This document shows positions 13,797-22,048 of a stretch of 64,000 nucleotides of DNA, one piece after another. The notes below the pieces were generated by a model. That model was not told the origin of the DNA, did not search any database, and worked only from the letters and a program-made list of their open reading frames with translations. The stretch comes from Methanosarcina sp. MTP4 (GTDB taxonomy: Archaea > Halobacteriota > Methanosarcinia > Methanosarcinales > Methanosarcinaceae): positions 124,001 to 188,000 of the forward strand of contig NZ_CP009505.1 of the NCBI RefSeq assembly GCF_000970045.1, given 5' to 3'. The position numbers were made by a program, and so were the translations under genes. Position 1 is the first letter of the stretch. Each line of letters starts with the position of its first letter.

Positions 13797-14105
13797 GATT
13801 TATCACACGACATCCTCCCAGGCTAACGTCTGGGTTTTCAGTCTTTTGAATAAGGGTTTTTATTATACGCTTTATAGATTTTTATAGTTGATGTAGTTTT
13901 GGAATCAGGTTTGGTTTGATTTCAAACTACTATATAGGGGGTTAAGGTATATATTATTTGTTGAAAGAAATTTTTTAGGGAGGGAATATAGAATAGATTT
14001 GTTTATATGTTTTCTCTAATTCTTTTTGTATGGCTAAAACGAAATAATCTCTTTGAAGGAATATAGGTGGATTTTAATCATAAAATTTAAAACTCTTCCA
14101 ATCTC
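13797..14105. other. divergent promoter region htpX / radical SAM gene
   Basis: 309 bp, AT-rich. On the minus strand the tract TATAAAAATCTATAAAG (near 13875-13890) is a plausible htpX TATA box. On the plus strand CATAAAATTTAAAAC (near 14079-14093) is so close to the ATG at 14106 that the radical SAM mRNA may be nearly leaderless. This is also the left border of the accessory segment. Confidence 0.4.
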
Positions 14106-14861
14106 ATGGATAAGTTTGAAGGTGGAAATATCACTACTATAATATATGAAACTCGAGGAAAGGCTAGAGAATACTGTGAACTAGCAGCCAATTTATACCG
14201 TGGATGTAGTCATGGTTGCACCTATTGTTATGCTCCATCTGCAACATTCAAAAAAAGAGAGAATTTTGTTAAACCTTGTGTAAGGAAAGACGTTATCAAA
14301 AAGTTTGAAAATGATGCTATTTATCTAGAAAAAATAGGGGAAACAAGGCCAGTATTGCTTTCTTTTACGACAGATCCTTACCAACCCTTAGATATAATAG
14401 AGAAATTAACGCGCCAAGCAATTGAAATTTTGCACAAACACAACCTCAAAGTTAAGATCCTTACAAAGGGAGGTAAACGGTCTGAAAGGGATTTTGATTT
14501 ACTCGCTGAAAGACCTGAATTAAGTGAATATGGCGCTACATTAGTTTTCACAGACGAAGAACTCCGATCTGAAATTGAGCCATTTGCGGCAAGTACAAAG
14601 GAAAGGATAGAATGTTTGAAAAAAGCCCATGAACTAGGCATTCCTACATTTGTTTCATTAGAGCCGGTCTGGACCGCTGAGCAGACATTAGAATTAATTG
14701 ATTCGACTTACAAGTTTGTAGATTCTTTTAAAGTTGGGAAGTTGAACTACAACAAACAGCAAAAAAATGTAGACTGGAAACAATTCAAATGCGATGTCAT
14801 TGTCAAACTTAAGAAATACAATAAGAACTATTATATTAAAGAAGATTTAATGAAATTTTGA
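14106..14861 (+). CDS. SplB-like radical SAM protein
   Basis: 251 aa. The cluster motif C34-x3-C38-x2-C41 (GCSHGCTYCYAP) defines a radical SAM enzyme of the spore-photoproduct-lyase-like group (COG1533). The later block FTTDPYQPLD and the LTKGGKRSERD region fit that family. It is shorter than the large COG1533 proteins and lacks an extra C-terminal Cys cluster. Codon use is AT-rich and unlike the core genes upstream, which suggests transfer. It converges with the TcmP-family gene 18 bp away. Three-Cys radical-SAM-like proteins are known partners of TcmP, so the two probably work together. The substrate is unknown. Confidence 0.75.
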   Translation: MDKFEGGNITTIIYETRGKAREYCELAANLYRGCSHGCTYCYAPSATFKKRENFVKPCVRKDVIKKFENDAIYLEKIGETRPVLLSFTTDPYQPLDIIEKLTRQAIEILHKHNLKVKILTKGGKRSERDFDLLAERPELSEYGATLVFTDEELRSEIEPFAASTKERIECLKKAHELGIPTFVSLEPVWTAEQTLELIDSTYKFVDSFKVGKLNYNKQQKNVDWKQFKCDVIVKLKKYNKNYYIKEDLMKF

Positions 14862-14879
14862 AGTTACTTATTTAAATTT

Positions 14880-15986
14880 CTAACTTGAGCATATGAAATT
14901 AATAATTGCTTTTTTATCTTTAAATCCTCCTCTAGTACCTTTTCCTGTGATTATTACTTTTCCTTTTCTTTCCAACTCCAATAAAGCCTCTTTGTAATCT
15001 TTTTGAATAAATTTGGTTTCAGTGAGCGTTTCATATCTTATTTGTTGATAAGAAAGTTTTCTTCCACCAAACTTTTCGAATAAATAATTTTGAAATTCTG
15101 ATGAATCTGAATATCTCATTAAATTCATTTGTCCATTTTGAGGTCCTAAGTAACCGAATCTGCCCTCAGTGCCTGCTTTGTACATTATATTTTTCATAAC
15201 TTCACACCCCATGGGGTGATTTGTTGCATGGATCAGGTAGTATGTAGTTTGCGATGTTTCGTCTGCACATACTTTGTAAGAGAGAACATAGTTTACTTTT
15301 GCATCTTCCAAGAGTTGTTTTTTATATAATTCGAGTAATGCGTATTCTCCGGCCCACTCAGAATCCCGATTTTTTATGATCTCTTCTACATTCTCGATTC
15401 CAAAAAAATCGTCTATACTTATCTTGTGGTTCGAATTTGTCAAAAATCTGTTCATGTCCCTTACCATAAAATTCAGGAAAACTTCAGTTCTCTTTACTTT
15501 GAGAATATCTTTTATCGCTTTAAATGGGATTCCACTCCATCCAAATGGATCGATAAAGAAAAAAGAGGGTGTTGAGGAACTTATTTGTGTGAAATCTGGT
15601 GCAATATTAATAAATTCATCGTTAATTATTTGTGTACTGATCATTCCTTCGTAATCATCTTTATGTTCTTCCATATTATCTGCTATTTTTTTAACAAGGT
15701 TTTCATAGTTGTTCTTATTCTTTTCAACAAAATAGCAGTTAATCTTGTCTAAGTAAGAAAAATCTTCTTTAACAATTTTGGCCGTATCTAATGCTATGAT
15801 CGGAGATCCTTTTTCTCCTTCTGCATATTCTCCTCTACCAGCAAAACAATCAAAATAATTCACGGCTTTATATCTTGAGCCCAGTATTCTTATCCAAGTG
15901 CCAAGATATTTGCTCAGTATTTCATGCTTTATTTCAGTGTGTTTCTTATAAATCCACTTATCTAGCTCGTCATCATTTAATGGCAT
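14880..15986 (-). CDS. three-Cys-motif partner protein TcmP family
   Basis: 368 aa. The N-terminal HTEIKHEILSKYLGTWIRIL (15-34), the motif-I-like NYFDCFAGRGEYAEG (43-57) and the FFFIDPFGWSGIPF block (142-155) match the TcmP family and look like a methyltransferase-type nucleotide fold, with DPFG in the place of a DPPY-type motif IV. Its partner in most genomes is a Cys-motif, radical-SAM-like protein, here the convergent 14106-14861 gene. The function of the pair is not established. It sits in an accessory segment near a RloA/RloB-like pair, so a role in mobile or defence biology is possible. AT-rich codons suggest transfer. Confidence 0.75.
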   Translation of the reverse strand: MPLNDDELDKWIYKKHTEIKHEILSKYLGTWIRILGSRYKAVNYFDCFAGRGEYAEGEKGSPIIALDTAKIVKEDFSYLDKINCYFVEKNKNNYENLVKKIADNMEEHKDDYEGMISTQIINDEFINIAPDFTQISSSTPSFFFIDPFGWSGIPFKAIKDILKVKRTEVFLNFMVRDMNRFLTNSNHKISIDDFFGIENVEEIIKNRDSEWAGEYALLELYKKQLLEDAKVNYVLSYKVCADETSQTTYYLIHATNHPMGCEVMKNIMYKAGTEGRFGYLGPQNGQMNLMRYSDSSEFQNYLFEKFGGRKLSYQQIRYETLTETKFIQKDYKEALLELERKGKVIITGKGTRGGFKDKKAIINFICSS

Positions 15987-16133
15987 CCTTACACCGCTAG
16001 TAAATTCTTCTACCTGAAATTAAAAAGGATATTAAGGAGAAATACACATTACATTACTTTTCTACATTAAAAACTTATTTTTAATCATCTCCAAAATGAT
16101 ATTTCCTGTGAATAAATTGTAATTATGAAAATC

Positions 16134-16378
16134 TCACTCCACAACCTCATACTCCACCCCCAATCCGATCTACTTCCCTATCCTATCAAACAGTGGAATC
16201 CCGCCTCTCAGAATGACCGGAATCACAAAAATAATAAAATCCTTCGCGAGGTCCTCCTCAAGAAAAACCTTGATGATCTGTGAGCCGCCGACGAGCCAGA
16301 TGTCCTCTTCCGTGGTTTCCTTGAGTTGGCGCACAAATTTCCCGATGTCCCCGGAGACGAACTCAGTGTTCTTTTCTC
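16134..16378 (-). pseudogene. partial copy of the DHFR-family gene at 17093-17638
   Basis: On the minus strand this stretch matches the 3' half of the intact gene, from the stop codon (TCACTCC...) to the point ACTC(A/G)(G/A)(T/C)GTTCTTTTC, with about 85-90% identity by eye. It has lost about 45 bp near the C-terminal end and the whole N-terminal half with its start and DGYIARSDG-type motif. It cannot make a functional enzyme. It marks an old duplication of this gene separated by about 700 bp. Confidence 0.85.
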
Positions 16379-17092
16379 TCTAAAGGTCCACATTATCTGA
16401 TTTACTTTGAAGGCATGATGCCTTTTTGTTCCTTAAGGTCAAAACCTGAAGTTCAGAAATTACTCCTTAAATAATTGTGGGGAGTGCTATCTTTTGTATT
16501 CCAATTTTATCTTGAAAAGCATCGAACTTGCTTGCTTGATTATTATTGTACTGAAGCCTAGCGTCGATATTCTAATCGAATAATAATAGAGAGTAATTTG
16601 TGTAGGATTTAATTGATTGCGGAAACTAAGGATTACGGATAGTAAAAGGTGTATAGAGGATATTAAGATTACAACTCCCTCTGGAGAAACCTTCGTGTAT
16701 TTTTTATCCGTACCTTCGGTAATTAGAGATCCGGATATTTGCATAGTATCCACTACCCACTCCCATTTACGGATTCGTTTATTAAATAAAATTACTTTTG
16801 ATATAAAGTCCCAGTTTTCTTACTGAATTTTTATTTTTGTACAGTTTTTCCCCAAAAACTTCTTACTGTTCAATAACGAGAGACCTCTATATATATCTTT
16901 TGAAAATAGTTAAATATGTAATTATATTTCTATTGTCATGGGTCCTATATCCGACACTAAAACCCCGAACTCACTTAATTTTGGTCATACGTTTGCCGAA
17001 ATCTGAGTAACTCTCTTTTATTTGATCTACTCATTTAAAAAACAGAATAGTTAAACCTCAATTCAATTGATTGCGGAAAAGTTTCGAATTTT
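16379..17092. other. unassigned spacer between decayed and intact DHFR-family genes
   Basis: About 710 bp, AT-rich. Two short overlapping open frames on opposite strands (16487-16753 and 16617-16826) have no recognisable motif or ribosome site and are not called. A 15-bp direct repeat AATTGATTGCGGAAA occurs at 16611-16625 and 17065-17079, 454 bp apart; it could be a relic of an insertion or recombination event. A TATA-like run lies near 16888-16895. Confidence 0.4.
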
Positions 17093-17638
17093 TCACTCCA
17101 CCACCTCATACTCCACCCTCACCACCCCACCATCATACCTTTCCGTCCCCACCAACCTCAACCTTATCTCCTTCCCAACCCGATCAAACAGCGGAATCCC
17201 GCCCCCCAGAATTACCGGAATCACGAAAATAATCAAATCCTGAACAAGGTCCTGCTCAAGAAAGACCTTGATGATCTGTGAGCCGCCGACGAGCCAGATC
17301 TCCTCCTCCGTATTTTCCTTTAGCTGGCGCACGAATTTCCCGATGTTCCCGGAGACGAACTCGACGTTCTTTTCACGGGGGAGGGTAGCTTCTTTTTCGG
17401 GTTGGCGGGTGAATACGTAGGTCTTTTTGTCCCCATAAGGCCAGGGGACCCCAAAGCCTAGGACCTGTTCGTAGGTCTTCCTGCCCATGAGGACCGTGCC
17501 GATTGAGGCGTAGAATTCGGAATAGCCGTAGTCGGTATCGGAGTTTTGCCCGGGTTCGGGGAGCCAGTCTATGCTTCCGTCGGAGCGGGCTATGTAGCCG
17601 TCGAGGCTGCAGGCGATGTAGAGCTTTATTCGGGGCAT
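17093..17638 (-). CDS. dihydrofolate reductase family protein (RibD C-terminal / YyaP type)
   Basis: 181 aa. It begins MPRIKLYIACSLDGYIARSDGS, the usual start of the RibD-C/DHFR-like reductases, followed by VLMGRKTYEQVLGF, the NADPH-binding EEIWLVGGSQIIKVFL, and the C-terminal VIPVILGGGIPLF block. These proteins reduce pterin- or pyrimidine-like substrates with NADPH; the exact substrate here is unknown. It stands alone on the minus strand. A truncated duplicate lies downstream at 16134-16378. Confidence 0.85.
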   Translation of the reverse strand: MPRIKLYIACSLDGYIARSDGSIDWLPEPGQNSDTDYGYSEFYASIGTVLMGRKTYEQVLGFGVPWPYGDKKTYVFTRQPEKEATLPREKNVEFVSGNIGKFVRQLKENTEEEIWLVGGSQIIKVFLEQDLVQDLIIFVIPVILGGGIPLFDRVGKEIRLRLVGTERYDGGVVRVEYEVVE

Positions 17639-18127: not shown

Positions 18128-19495
18128 ATGCTCCTGGAATTCTCTGTTGAAAACTTTCTCTCCTTTAAGGATAGGGTTACCCTTAGCCTTGACTCCAGTG
18201 CGAGCAAGAAGCTTCCCTGCAACCTTATAGAGGTCTCGGAAAAGGAGCGGCTGCTCAAGTCGGCTGTGGTTTACGGGGCAAACGCTTCCGGGAAGTCTAA
18301 CCTTGTGAAGGCTCTCTTTTTCATGCGGAACATGGTTGCGCATTCGCACAATTTTAACATTGACACGAGGATTCCCGTTACTCCTTTCAGGCTGGACAGG
18401 GACTGCCTTGAAAAGCCTTCCCGTTTTGAGCTCAAATTTGTTCATGAGGGGGTCAGGTACAGGTATGGTTTTTCCTGTGACAGATGGCGGGTTATCGATG
18501 AGTACCTTTTCGAAAGGCCGGGGAGAAGGGAAAGGGCCGTCTTTAAGCGGAAGAACAGCTCTGAAAAAGACAGTTCTGACAAAAACAATTTTGACAAAGG
18601 CAGCTCTGATAGCGATAACTCTTACAGATGCAGCTCGGAATTTCACTTTCCCGTGGACAAAAAGCAACAGGAACTTATTAGTTCCCAGACCATCGAAAAC
18701 ACCCTCTACCTCTCACGGGCGACGCAGCTCGGGTATGAGAAAACCAGGCCGGTCTATGATTTCTTCACCGGGGGCCTGCGGGTCTGCCTCACTCCGGGCT
18801 GGGAGAACTATACCCTTGAGCGGATGCATTCTGACGAAGTATTCAAGGCAAGGGTTATCGAGGTGCTAAAAAAAGCTGATTTCGGAGGGATAGAGGAGAT
18901 CACGGTCAAAAAGCTAAAAAGTCCTTCCCCCGCGCCGGAATTCGTGTTCGAGTACTCCCCTACGGATGCTTTCAAAAGTTCTGGGCCTGCTACTGGGCCT
19001 GCCGCTATGTCTGCCAGTGGGTACGGTGGGGCTTACAGTGGGGCTTATGGGGATTCTTACGAAGTAAGGACCAGGCACAGGACAGAAAGCGGGGATGCCG
19101 TATATTTTGACCTGCGCGAGGAATCCGAAGGGACCCGGAAAACCCTCATGCTCCTTGGACCTCTCTTTGACGTAATGGACAAAGGCGGGGTTCTTTTCAT
19201 AGACGAACTCGAATCGAGCCTCCACCCTGAAATCACCCGGCTTCTGATCCGGCTTTTCAACAGCAAAAAGAACAGCCAGGCACAGCTAATCTTCACCACC
19301 CATGACACGAACCTCCTTGACAACGAACTTTTCAGGCGGGACCAGATATACTTCTGTACGAAAGAGCCTAATCGGCATACGGAGCTTGCTTCCCTGCTAG
19401 ATTTCGACATAAGGCAGGAGATTGATTTTGAGAGGGCTTACCTGACGGGCAGGGTCGGGGGTGTTCCTATCGTGGATGAAACTCTGCTTTATTGA
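18128..19495 (+). CDS. AAA_15/OLD-like ATPase, RloA/AbiLi-type
   Basis: 455 aa. ABC/SMC-like ATPase of the COG1106 group. Seen: the Asp/Asn-rich start FSVENFLSFKD, Walker A GANASGKSN (50-58), a signature-like EESEGTRK (331-338), Walker B VLFIDELE (355-362), and the H-loop TTHD (390-393). The C-terminus lacks a TOPRIM domain; that function would come from the next gene. Two low-complexity insertions are odd: Ser/Asp/Lys-rich 142-170 and Gly/Ala/Ser/Tyr-rich 284-311. A RloB-family gene follows 97 bp downstream on the same strand. Such ATPase/RloB pairs occur in restriction loci and as the AbiL abortive-infection system, so anti-phage defence is the likely role. This is inference from family and context. 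Confidence 0.82.
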   Translation: MLLEFSVENFLSFKDRVTLSLDSSASKKLPCNLIEVSEKERLLKSAVVYGANASGKSNLVKALFFMRNMVAHSHNFNIDTRIPVTPFRLDRDCLEKPSRFELKFVHEGVRYRYGFSCDRWRVIDEYLFERPGRRERAVFKRKNSSEKDSSDKNNFDKGSSDSDNSYRCSSEFHFPVDKKQQELISSQTIENTLYLSRATQLGYEKTRPVYDFFTGGLRVCLTPGWENYTLERMHSDEVFKARVIEVLKKADFGGIEEITVKKLKSPSPAPEFVFEYSPTDAFKSSGPATGPAAMSASGYGGAYSGAYGDSYEVRTRHRTESGDAVYFDLREESEGTRKTLMLLGPLFDVMDKGGVLFIDELESSLHPEITRLLIRLFNSKKNSQAQLIFTTHDTNLLDNELFRRDQIYFCTKEPNRHTELASLLDFDIRQEIDFERAYLTGRVGGVPIVDETLLY

Positions 19496-19592
19496 CAATA
19501 ATTCATTGAACTGGTCTATTGACAATGATTGTCAACAGTTTGTTTATAACTGTTGACAATAATTTATTGATGGGGTTTGGGAAGGGCCTATC

Positions 19593-20189
19593 ATGGTTAG
19601 AAAGAAAGGGAAAAAGCCTATAAAAACTGCCTGGATCTTTTGCGAAGGCGAAAAAACGGAGTCCTACTACTTTAGCAAGTTGAGGGCAGAGGAAAGGCTT
19701 GAAAGGTTGAGGATCAAGGTCCATTCTTCTGAAAATAAGGATCCTGTTGGCCTTGTGAATTACTCCGTCGAATTCAAAAAGCACAGAAAGGACTACCTGC
19801 CCGGGGATTTGATCTTCTGCGTTTTCGACAGGGACCTAAATTCAAACGCGGCACTTGCAAAAGCAAAGAAAATTGCAGAGGAAAACGGTCTTTCCCTGAT
19901 CTTCTCGAACCCCTGTTTTGAATACTGGCTACTTTCGCATTTCGAATATTATCCACAGGCGATAGAAAAGGACCTGCTTGAAAGAAAACTGGACCGAAAC
20001 CTGGGCGAATACCGAAAAAATGACCCGGAACTCTACACAAAAACAAGGGACAGGATTGATGATGCAGTAAGCAATTCCAGGCAGGTCCGTGAAAAGCACC
20101 TGGAATACGGTGTGGAAATCCTGAGCAGGAAGAGCAATCCTTCAACCTTTGTCTTTGATTTGATAGAAAAAGTCAATGGTTTCAGGTAG
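19593..20189 (+). CDS. RloB/AbiLii-like TOPRIM-type protein
   Basis: 198 aa, normal length for RloB. The start KTAWIFCEGEKTESYYF places acidic residues at 18-23, followed by IFCVFDRD (74-81) and SNPCFEYWLLSHF (105-117). This is the pattern of a small TOPRIM-like nuclease domain (Glu, then DxD, then the RloB-specific NPCFExWL block). It follows the ATPase gene with a short spacer that contains repeated TTGACAATAATT(C/T)ATTGA-type sequence (19493-19570). In known systems the ATPase senses infection and the TOPRIM partner is the effector. Confidence 0.82.
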   Translation: MVRKKGKKPIKTAWIFCEGEKTESYYFSKLRAEERLERLRIKVHSSENKDPVGLVNYSVEFKKHRKDYLPGDLIFCVFDRDLNSNAALAKAKKIAEENGLSLIFSNPCFEYWLLSHFEYYPQAIEKDLLERKLDRNLGEYRKNDPELYTKTRDRIDDAVSNSRQVREKHLEYGVEILSRKSNPSTFVFDLIEKVNGFR

Positions 20190-20410: not shown

Positions 20411-22048
20411 TCAACTTGGGATATACTTCCCAAGTTGAAGTTTTGTAAATATTTTTGCAGTTTCTTTGTTCATTTCTTCTATAACAAACTCTGCATTTTT
20501 CTCTTCTTTTGCACTATAGACAAGACTCATTCTTATCTTTTCGAGATTAGTGGCCAATTTTTGAATTGTCAGTTCAGGATCATCAATCAAATGGAGTAAA
20601 TAATTGTGGAGCAGTAATCCCATTACACAAAGAAACACGTGTGCTCTTATCTTCACATCCTTCCTTACATATACAGGTTTTATCGGTATCAGTAACCTGT
20701 CCTTTAGCCACTTTATGTCCTCTTCAATCATATTTCGGGAATCATACATTTCCACAATTTCTTTTGTTGCAAGGTTTTCCTTATCAGTAAATACAACAGT
20801 CTTTCCCATCCCTGAAAGAAACTCTTTCTCCCGACTTTCATTTAAACTGAAATTAAGTTGTAACTTCCCTTCATTTTCAATGACATTGTAATCAAAGAGT
20901 CCTCTATATTGCTTTGGTACCGTATCAACGACCCGGTTCATAAGGCCTTTTGATGTCATTTTTCTTCCCCTTCCTTTGTGGTTAAGCCTTGATCTTAGTT
21001 CTTCGATTTTCTCCAGAATCATGACTCTTTTTGTTTCCCACTCATGCATCTGTTTTCTCCTGGTAATTTCACTGTACTTTATTGCTCCGGTGAAATTCTG
21101 TTCATACCATTTCCCCATAATACGATGAGCTTTAATGATATTGTTTTTTCCATTTTCCCATTCCTCTTCAAAGTCGGACAAAGGAATTTGAAACAAATCT
21201 TTACACATCGAAGAAGGTAGAGCCCCAACAACATGCATTTTATCCAGAACATGTTCTATGTTATCTATTGAGTTCATTCCCCTATCAAAAACGATAGTAA
21301 TCTCATCAAGAGGAATCTCGATTTCTTCTACACGTTTGCAAATGTTGTCAATTAAACCTGAAAACAAAGTTACATCAGGTATGTTTGCCGGGTAGGTAAT
21401 TGTCTGAAAAGGAATGTTCTTGTTTGAAGTTGTTAAGCCAACACCTATCAGGTTCTTATCATACCGTTTATCCTTAGAGAACCCCTTTTTTGGGAGTTCC
21501 TCTCCATGCTCGATATGAGTGTAAAAGTTAGTCGTGTCAAATGTTAGTTTAGTTGGCCTTATTCCTTTTTGGATTAGTGTTCTGGAGACATCAATTTCGA
21601 TTTTACGGATTGTTTCTTCATCCAATCTTTCCATGTAGTTAAGGAAGTTCTGACTTGAGAGTTTATATGAGGGATTCCAGAAAAATTTGAGTAAACTTTC
21701 TTTGAAGTATTCATCAAGAACATTCCTGCTAAGGATATGTTCGGATCTTCCGATGATGATTAAAAGGAGATATTCTGCAGGCGTAAGGCCTTTTATGCTT
21801 TTTCTGTCAATGTGTTTGTTCATAGCTTCAATGAGGCCTACTTCTTCAGCTGCCTTGAGTAAGGCAGCTGGTTTGCCAAAAGAGTAGGATGCTATTCTTG
21901 TTTCTTTTGTTTCCATTATGAGGTCATAAACTTGGTCAGCAGTCCCAACATACTTTTGAATTGTTTGGACAACTTTTCCATCAATTCGTTCATTCTTTAT
22001 GACGTAAAGGTATTTGTGGCCCGATATAGTTTTAATCTTGAAGTGCAT
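20411..22048 (-). CDS. IS1634-family-like transposase
   Basis: 545 aa, full length and uninterrupted, so potentially active. DDE-type transposase: the first catalytic region is around KLTFDTTNFYTH, the second around ITIVFDRGMNSID, and the Glu region around DSRNMIEEDIKWLKDRL, followed by RKDVKIRAHVFLCVMGLLL, which is typical of IS4/IS1634-group enzymes. The stop codon lies inside a 9-bp hairpin CAACTTGGG...CCCAAGTTG (20412-20438). Confidence 0.85.
   Translation of the reverse strand: MHFKIKTISGHKYLYVIKNERIDGKVVQTIQKYVGTADQVYDLIMETKETRIASYSFGKPAALLKAAEEVGLIEAMNKHIDRKSIKGLTPAEYLLLIIIGRSEHILSRNVLDEYFKESLLKFFWNPSYKLSSQNFLNYMERLDEETIRKIEIDVSRTLIQKGIRPTKLTFDTTNFYTHIEHGEELPKKGFSKDKRYDKNLIGVGLTTSNKNIPFQTITYPANIPDVTLFSGLIDNICKRVEEIEIPLDEITIVFDRGMNSIDNIEHVLDKMHVVGALPSSMCKDLFQIPLSDFEEEWENGKNNIIKAHRIMGKWYEQNFTGAIKYSEITRRKQMHEWETKRVMILEKIEELRSRLNHKGRGRKMTSKGLMNRVVDTVPKQYRGLFDYNVIENEGKLQLNFSLNESREKEFLSGMGKTVVFTDKENLATKEIVEMYDSRNMIEEDIKWLKDRLLIPIKPVYVRKDVKIRAHVFLCVMGLLLHNYLLHLIDDPELTIQKLATNLEKIRMSLVYSAKEEKNAEFVIEEMNKETAKIFTKLQLGKYIPS
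20411..22048 (-). mobile_element. insertion sequence, IS1634-like; outer ends not resolved
   Basis: The element must at least contain the transposase gene. No convincing pair of terminal inverted repeats or target duplication could be read in 20330-20411 and 22049-22200, so the ends are left open. Beyond the element on each side lie copies of a 34-bp repeat, and an inverted 12-bp match (ATAACCGGAGTTT near 20322, AAACTCCGGTATA near 22230). Confidence 0.6.

Follow-up and report, generated by a model that had tools for sequence, protein, structure and literature searches.

TcmP, a predicted RlmJ-like methyltransferase exchanged beside a conserved radical S-adenosylmethionine partner in archaea, bacteria and phages

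The protein family TIGR04474 (three-Cys-motif partner protein, TcmP) was named by NCBI after its partner, and the name gives no function. Versions of TcmP that are accompanied by a DUF5131 protein are listed by PADLOC as the phage-defence candidates PDC-M30 and PDC-M41; the pair is therefore not new as a pair. In the data reported for Pseudomonas aeruginosa, 68.8% of 32 strains bearing PDC-M30 were resistant, which is a correlation only (PMC10855318). The function of TcmP was not the subject of any title or abstract in the literature searched, which excluded bioRxiv and most subscription journals. Here, we describe a TcmP gene and an adjoining gene for a radical S-adenosylmethionine (SAM) enzyme in a stretch of 64,000 nucleotides from Methanosarcina sp. 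MTP4 (contig NZ_CP009505.1, positions 124,001 to 188,000; hereafter the window), which is part of a genome of 4.21 Mb; an mcr operon recognized by eye is in keeping with a Methanosarcina-like methanogen.

The window TcmP belongs to TIGR04474, with 197.3 bits (E 4.4e-58) against a curated cut-off of 53, and a three-cysteine (CX3CX2C) radical SAM gene, the kind of partner after which the family is named, lies 18 bp away. The window TcmP also matches PDC-M30A at 3e-37. The window radical SAM protein had no PADLOC match at E 0.01, so that the B component of PDC-M30, which is of the DUF5131 type, is lacking; DUF5131 was also rejected as the identity of this partner by Pfam (17 bits, cut-off 28.9). 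By comparison, the DUF5131 partners of TcmP on a Streptomyces plasmid and in two Gordonia phages match PDC-M30B and PDC-M41B at 3e-104 or better. Among characterized enzymes, TcmP shares its predicted fold and the catalytic positions Lys18, Asp164 and Ser100 with RlmJ, the adenine-N6 methyltransferase of m6A2030 in 23S rRNA. Unlike RlmJ, TcmP is accessory and paired and, in the type found in the window, carries an added winged helix. The radical SAM protein likewise shares predicted fold and cluster motif with the spore photoproduct lyase, PA0069 and Rv2578c families and differs by the lack of a fourth conserved cysteine. As far as the literature searched is concerned, the relation to RlmJ, including the catalytic residues, the replacement of TcmP next to a partner that is conserved, the series of Gordonia phages described below and the radical SAM partner subfamily undetected by PADLOC 2.0.0 are new.

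Exchange of TcmP beside a conserved radical SAM partner

The partnership between TcmP and a radical SAM enzyme is real. Among the 392 genomes of this archaeal phylum that were searched, 37 had a TcmP match, and a radical SAM open reading frame (ORF) adjoined TcmP in 36 of these (30 loci and the genomes G033, G285, G308, G316, G326 and G360). In the remaining genome, G282, TcmP was a fragment of 74 residues on a contig of 3.5 kb, and two of the paired genomes, G107 and G326, have split TcmP genes. In two bacterial sets, which we infer to represent Pseudomonadota and Bacillota, TcmP scored above the cut-off in 24/398 and 30/398 genomes. All 24 loci of the former had a radical SAM neighbour, as had 27 of the 30 of the latter, the three misses being one contig edge and two fragments (33 Bacillota genomes had a match; G874, G934 and G1100, with partial matches, were left out). 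TcmP also occurs on plasmids and in temperate phages, and a close relative of the pair is carried by a Methanolobus contig (L084). Thus, the recurrent partnership assumed in a preliminary description of this locus, made from the sequence alone, was confirmed. In one genome (G268) both proteins are fused in a single frame of 645 amino acids, and at three Pseudomonadota loci (G634, G662 and G719) one radical SAM gene is accompanied by two TcmP genes. In L266, L267 and L268, two different TcmP genes flank or adjoin one radical SAM gene; several TcmP loci (L062, L076, L087 and L183-L187; haloarchaeal where named) have two radical SAM genes.

The convergent arrangement stressed in the preliminary description holds for the window and is one of several found elsewhere. 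In a first set of 44 pairs, 19 were convergent, 23 tandem and two divergent; in a second set of 45, nine were convergent and 36 tandem, with none divergent. Convergent overlap as a defining trait of the pair was therefore rejected.

The two proteins do not co-diverge, as TcmP is swapped while its radical SAM partner stays. This is the informative feature of the pair and was beyond the reach of the preliminary description. Across 87 pairs, the identities among TcmPs and those among radical SAM proteins gave a Spearman correlation of -0.045, which was equalled or exceeded in 859 of 1000 permutations; a first set of 42 pairs had given 0.039 (367 of 2000 permutations). As a control of the method, the halves of a single protein were compared with each other, which gave correlations of 0.839 for the radical SAM protein and 0.444 for TcmP. 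Among the 162 comparisons with a radical SAM identity of at least 60%, the median identity of the TcmPs was 22%, with 104 under 30% and nine at 60% or above. Nine archaeal radical SAM proteins share 61-74% identity with that of the window, and the TcmPs beside them share 16-49% with the window TcmP. Conversely, the TcmPs closest to that of the window (55% and 52%) have neighbouring radical SAM proteins that are 17% and 16% identical to the window protein.

The same exchange is seen at close range in ten temperate Gordonia phages with a common gene order: immunity repressor, TcmP, radical SAM gene (on the opposite strand), a protease-like gene, a helix-turn-helix gene and integrase; in Jablanski and Pytheas, one additional gene separates TcmP from the repressor. 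Across these phages the identity of the radical SAM gene is 92-100% and that of the protease 90-100%, and a single slot is filled by five TcmP types with a mutual identity of 18-28% (51% for one pair). In each of the four pairs of genomes that were aligned, the stretch of matching DNA over the radical SAM gene starts 7-22 bp inside its TcmP-facing 3' end, which indicates that TcmP is replaced as a block. The TcmP type does not track the repressor type: Easley and Bosnia have repressors of 85% identity and TcmPs of 21%. The radical SAM gene is also present, unannotated, in BaxterFox (L278, 4007-4756), where the annotation gives ORFs of the other strand in its place; PantheRoc has the same gene annotated at this place.

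In CarolAnn, a related Gordonia phage, two genes cotranscribed with the repressor, gp43 and gp44, are reported to give prophage defence (PMC6426606); their position tied to the repressor of a temperate Gordonia phage resembles that of TcmP, and the genes differ. For cluster CZ, which includes BaxterFox, the region of integrase and repressor has been predicted to carry defence genes, and the passage concerned names genes 31 and 32 of BaxterFox, not TcmP (PMC5559632). By analogy, a role of TcmP in prophage-mediated exclusion would be a natural guess.

Folds and motifs of the two enzymes

Sequence searches against solved structures were uninformative for both proteins, so that fold comparison was needed: TcmP gave only matches at chance level (best 0.11; HhaI 0.2), and the radical SAM profile found no match at E 0.1. 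For TcmP, the AlphaFold2 model (predicted local distance difference test, pLDDT, 80.9; predicted template modelling score 0.82) had RlmJ as its best solved fold (Foldseek 1.6e-6; VIA-align Z 18.4 with 212 residues aligned at 3.0 A). For the whole protein, Trm1 (3axs) was the next family by fold, below RlmJ, with Z 14.7 and 233 aligned residues. A fold search of viral models (BFVD) gave one match under 0.001, a Hyperionvirus protein at 1.9e-5. In RlmJ, activity is lost in the K18A and D164A variants, and the cofactor is bound by Ser100 (PMC3814359). These residues align with K20, D146 and S61 of TcmP. In an alignment of 87 TcmPs, the K20 column holds lysine in 86 of 86 (one gap), the D146 column aspartate in 87 of 87 and the S61 column serine or threonine in 85 of 87. 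In addition, the matches to TIGR04474 under its threshold in Pseudomonadota were RlmJ orthologues at 6/6 loci checked. Direct profile comparison with a single RlmJ sequence (hhalign) yielded a probability of 41% over 66 columns only. The proposed kinship of TcmP with RlmJ is thus based on fold, motifs and the weak TIGR04474 matches of RlmJ orthologues.

The motifs FDCFAGRGEY and DPFGWSG, which the preliminary description had taken to indicate a modified methyltransferase, are present; they correspond to motifs I and IV as usual among TcmPs and are no peculiarity of the window copy. The term also undersells the protein, in which the catalytic lysine and aspartate and the SAM-binding serine of RlmJ are kept. 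A winged helix of the GMT type (PF22560, 9e-10) was matched at the C-terminus.

The radical SAM protein matches Radical_SAM (PF04055) at 4.2e-15. Its nearest NCBIfam model is the PA0069-type NF033668 (1.4e-24), with 86.8 bits under a cut-off of 360, and it stays under the cut-off of every NCBIfam model compared. Its structural model (pLDDT 94.4) is closest to spore photoproduct lyase (4k9r; Z 19.1 over 223 residues at 2.9 A), followed by SuiB, a maturase of ribosomally synthesized and post-translationally modified peptides (Z 17.4), and pyruvate formate-lyase activase (Z 16.3). In the lyase of Bacillus subtilis a fourth conserved cysteine, C141, donates hydrogen and is catalytic (PMC3742179). 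In an alignment of 40 relatives of the window protein, the three cluster cysteines are the only invariant ones; two other cysteine-rich columns hold cysteine in 22/40 and serine or threonine in the window protein. As the equivalent of C141 is missing, the assignment as a true spore photoproduct lyase was rejected. Among the partners of the 87 TcmPs, the cluster spacing is CX6CX2C in 46 and CX3CX2C in 27 by first match (29 by any match), and CX3CX3C occurs in at least three. An archaeal contig (L065, 2766-5999) holds a frame of 1077 amino acids with a radical SAM domain towards its C-terminal side; this protein, also found in L043, was dropped as a candidate TcmP fusion, since its N-terminal part resembles a viral replication protein by eye.

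Relatives of the radical SAM protein are also found in other viruses. A search of IMG/VR with the window protein gave 330 stretches, of which 80 were kept; 70 loci had a clear radical SAM ORF, 45 of them with 2 kb on either side. A small methyltransferase-like protein with a DxDxY motif, distinct from TcmP, lies within 3 kb of the radical SAM gene in 31 of the 70 loci and within 100 bp in 16, 12 of which are convergent; more than half of the 70 have no methyltransferase of this kind nearby. A profile built from 19 of 33 such proteins matches Trm1 at 3.9e-4, and Pfam TRM was found for two of the 19. The radical SAM family has thus been joined to a methyltransferase at least twice. Between TcmP and the viral Trm1-like set, hhalign gave probabilities of 57% (39 columns) and 77% (47 columns), in both cases around motif IV, and we do not claim the two as a single family. 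L128 (6747-7337) holds an example of the small viral Trm1-like methyltransferase, which is often convergent with the radical SAM gene. Three such proteins examined against PHROG gave no match at 0.001. Versions with an N-terminal ParB-like domain occur in L150, L158, L172 and L174, recognized by a PHROG match for L158 and by eye for the others.

The cargo segment and its surroundings

Both ORFs, with their converging stop codons, are as given in the preliminary description, and its remark that both are AT-rich compared with their neighbours was supported: at a GC content of 0.349 (radical SAM gene) and 0.326 (TcmP), against 0.459 for the window, they rank lowest among 53 non-overlapping ORFs of at least 100 amino acids. 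The pair occupies a cargo segment (Table 1) within a hotspot (13985-17092) whose flanks, htpX upstream and a RibD-like gene downstream, are conserved in three congeners (L095-L097). No two of the four genomes compared within the genus carry the same cargo. In the congeners it consists of two uncharacterised genes, of a lipoprotein-like gene with repeats and of a protein of 521 amino acids that is nuclease-like by eye (L097); none of the three congener genomes has a TcmP match. At the right edge of the cargo, the partial copy of the RibD-like gene was identified by self-BLAST (85.7% over 223 bp and a further 26 bp at 96%).

Table 1. Features of the pair and its surroundings, with positions in the window.
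Feature	Position	Strand	Remarks
AT-rich cargo segment holding the pair	13985..16133		GC 0.322; other cargo in three congeners (BLAST of flanks against L095, L096, L097)
Radical SAM gene	14106..14861	+	251 aa, ATG start; predicted spore-photoproduct-lyase fold, PA0069-like compact subfamily
CSHGCTYC, CX3CX2C cluster motif (C34, C38, C41) of radical SAM protein	14205..14228	+	invariant in 40/40 aligned relatives
Intergenic gap between convergent stop codons	14862..14879		18 bp
TcmP gene	14880..15986	-	368 aa, ATG start; predicted RlmJ-like methyltransferase core and C-terminal winged helix
GMT-like winged helix domain of TcmP	14946..15113	-	residues 292-347; PF22560
DPFG, motif IV of TcmP	15540..15551	-	D146 aligned with catalytic Asp164 of RlmJ
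K20 codon of TcmP	15927..15929	-	aligned with catalytic Lys18 of RlmJ (motif X)
Decayed partial copy of 3' part of RibD-like gene	16134..16376	-	source gene 17093-17638; right edge of cargo
AbiL-type pair	18128..20189	+	AAA_21 18128-19495; RloB-like 19593-20189
IS1634-family transposase	20411-22048		downstream of AbiL pair

Downstream of the hotspot lies an AbiL-type pair (PADLOC AbiLi 6.6e-94, AbiLii 1e-25). It is kept in all three congeners and thus represents a separate, known defence system outside the TcmP module.

In archaea, the surroundings of the pair at 12 loci (12-14 kb each) were compared with 12 regions from the same genomes, picked by coordinate and not formally random. The pair regions matched 170 PADLOC models, 25 of which were listed; these are models rather than genes, and their number is inflated by redundant models of type I specificity. 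Among the matches listed, type I restriction genes lie beside three of the 12 loci, L067 and L068 with restriction and specificity genes and L071 with a restriction gene; L071 additionally has an OLD-like gene. No type I model matched in the 12 control regions at E 1e-15. Given the small sample, we take this defence context as supporting evidence only. In a published table for Sinorhizobium meliloti, the TcmP gene SMa2243 occupies the row adjoining that of hna (SMa2245), a phage-defence gene; the nolR comparison gives log2 changes of 1.04 and 1.08 (PMC12445080).

Candidate mechanisms

We favour, with slightly less than even confidence, a mobile two-enzyme module in the conflict between cells and viruses, in which TcmP would select the nucleic-acid target and the radical SAM enzyme would act on it. 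TcmP would methylate an exocyclic amine, most likely adenine N6, of the chosen nucleic acid, and the radical SAM enzyme, as the common partner, would act on the selected base and most likely add a second modification. Swapping of TcmP alleles would then change the target and leave the radical chemistry constant. We infer that both enzymes act on one base; this base may lie in DNA or RNA of the invader or the host, and defence may be the outcome. From the RlmJ-like and spore-photoproduct-lyase-like folds of the models, nucleic acid is the most plausible substrate, and RNA is somewhat favoured because RlmJ and Trm1 act on RNA. The preliminary description had proposed a methyltransferase-like protein and a radical SAM enzyme in accessory DNA that may modify nucleic acid; the two-gene module stands, and the modification is what the folds suggest.

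Several observations weigh against this reading. The window TcmP has DPFG at motif IV, which departs from the DPP(Y/F) pattern of RlmJ (DPPY in RlmJ itself); across the 87 TcmPs, the third position is Y in 36, F in 28 and W in eight, and the fourth is G in 62. The helical subdomain that follows motif I in RlmJ is missing, with 50 residues between GAGRY and GSP in RlmJ and five at the same place in the window TcmP. Despite both differences, TcmP is very probably an active amino-methyltransferase, because the predicted RlmJ fold comes with conserved K20, D146 and S61. Inside one radical SAM subfamily (identity of at least 40%, 1060 comparisons) a weak correlation with TcmP of 0.316 was found, which indicates that the exchange is common without being complete. 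Among the matches listed, defence genes could be placed at only four of the 12 archaeal loci (AbiL and the three type I loci), and the control regions matched 20 other PADLOC models, including E1-E2, Cas4, BrxP, mad2, mad3, LmuB and pVip. The literature searched held no test of activity or phage resistance of the pair. Finally, the dependence within the pair appears one-sided. Four broken TcmP genes lie beside full-length radical SAM ORFs (G326, G1161, G918 and G107), some of which may be due to errors in draft assemblies. No broken radical SAM gene beside an intact TcmP was seen in the loci examined, as judged by ORF length, nor any full-length TcmP without a radical SAM neighbour away from contig edges, and no TcmP was detected beside the viral radical SAM gene at 79 of 80 loci, many of them cut by contig ends. 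If methylation by TcmP came first and were harmless, the reverse asymmetry would be expected.

This one-sided dependence favours the strongest rival, a writer with its antidote, which we consider possible but rather unlikely: TcmP would add a harmful or marking methyl group that the radical SAM enzyme removes or repairs, as in a toxin-antitoxin system whose antidote is an enzyme of generic action, and the stand-alone viral radical SAM genes would serve counter-defence. TcmP seems to need the radical SAM enzyme and not vice versa (79/80 viral loci, four broken TcmPs), a single conserved partner serves very different TcmPs, even two together, and the nearest radical SAM fold is that of an enzyme of direct-reversal repair. 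However, the window enzyme is without the hydrogen-donating cysteine of that lyase, we know of no radical SAM enzyme that demethylates a nucleobase, and both the fusion in G268 and the viral pairing with a Trm1-like methyltransferase fit joint modification better. The broken TcmP genes in draft assemblies may also be sequencing errors, and an order of action with the radical enzyme first and TcmP second would likewise explain the dependence of TcmP on its partner. In its boldest form, a swappable m6A-type writer with a conserved, oxygen-independent radical SAM eraser would be a new class of conflict system, including the first radical SAM nucleobase demethylase and viral erasers as counter-defence; we think this distinctly unlikely.

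A housekeeping pair for RNA modification or DNA repair, spread by chance transfer and without a role in conflict, is improbable. RlmJ and Trm1 are indeed housekeeping RNA methyltransferases and spore photoproduct lyase is a repair enzyme, but the spread of the pair is patchy (37/392 archaeal, 24/398 and 30/398 bacterial genomes), and its occurrence on plasmids, in temperate phages and in a cargo hotspot and the extreme replacement of TcmP alleles argue against it. Equally hard to sustain is the idea that the target of the radical SAM enzyme is TcmP itself or some other protein, with nucleic acid left to TcmP: proteins and peptides are substrates of many radical SAM enzymes, and SuiB and pyruvate formate-lyase activase follow as the next folds (Z 17.4 and 16.3), but the best fold is that of a nucleic-acid enzyme, the enzyme would have to accept TcmPs of 16-28% identity, and many pairs overlap or nearly touch, with no space for a gene between them (no search for precursor peptides beside the pairs was made).

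Whether the module acts by joint modification or by reversal, the chemistry would be new if true: either a two-step modification of a nucleobase via interchangeable methyltransferases, or the undoing of a methyl mark by radical chemistry. The ten Gordonia phages, with their differing TcmPs beside a near-identical radical SAM gene, provide a ready-made comparison set. As the RlmJ-like, variable half of a pair that shares its radical enzyme, TcmP, found in archaea, bacteria, plasmids and phages, would turn from a named family without function into a testable enzyme system.

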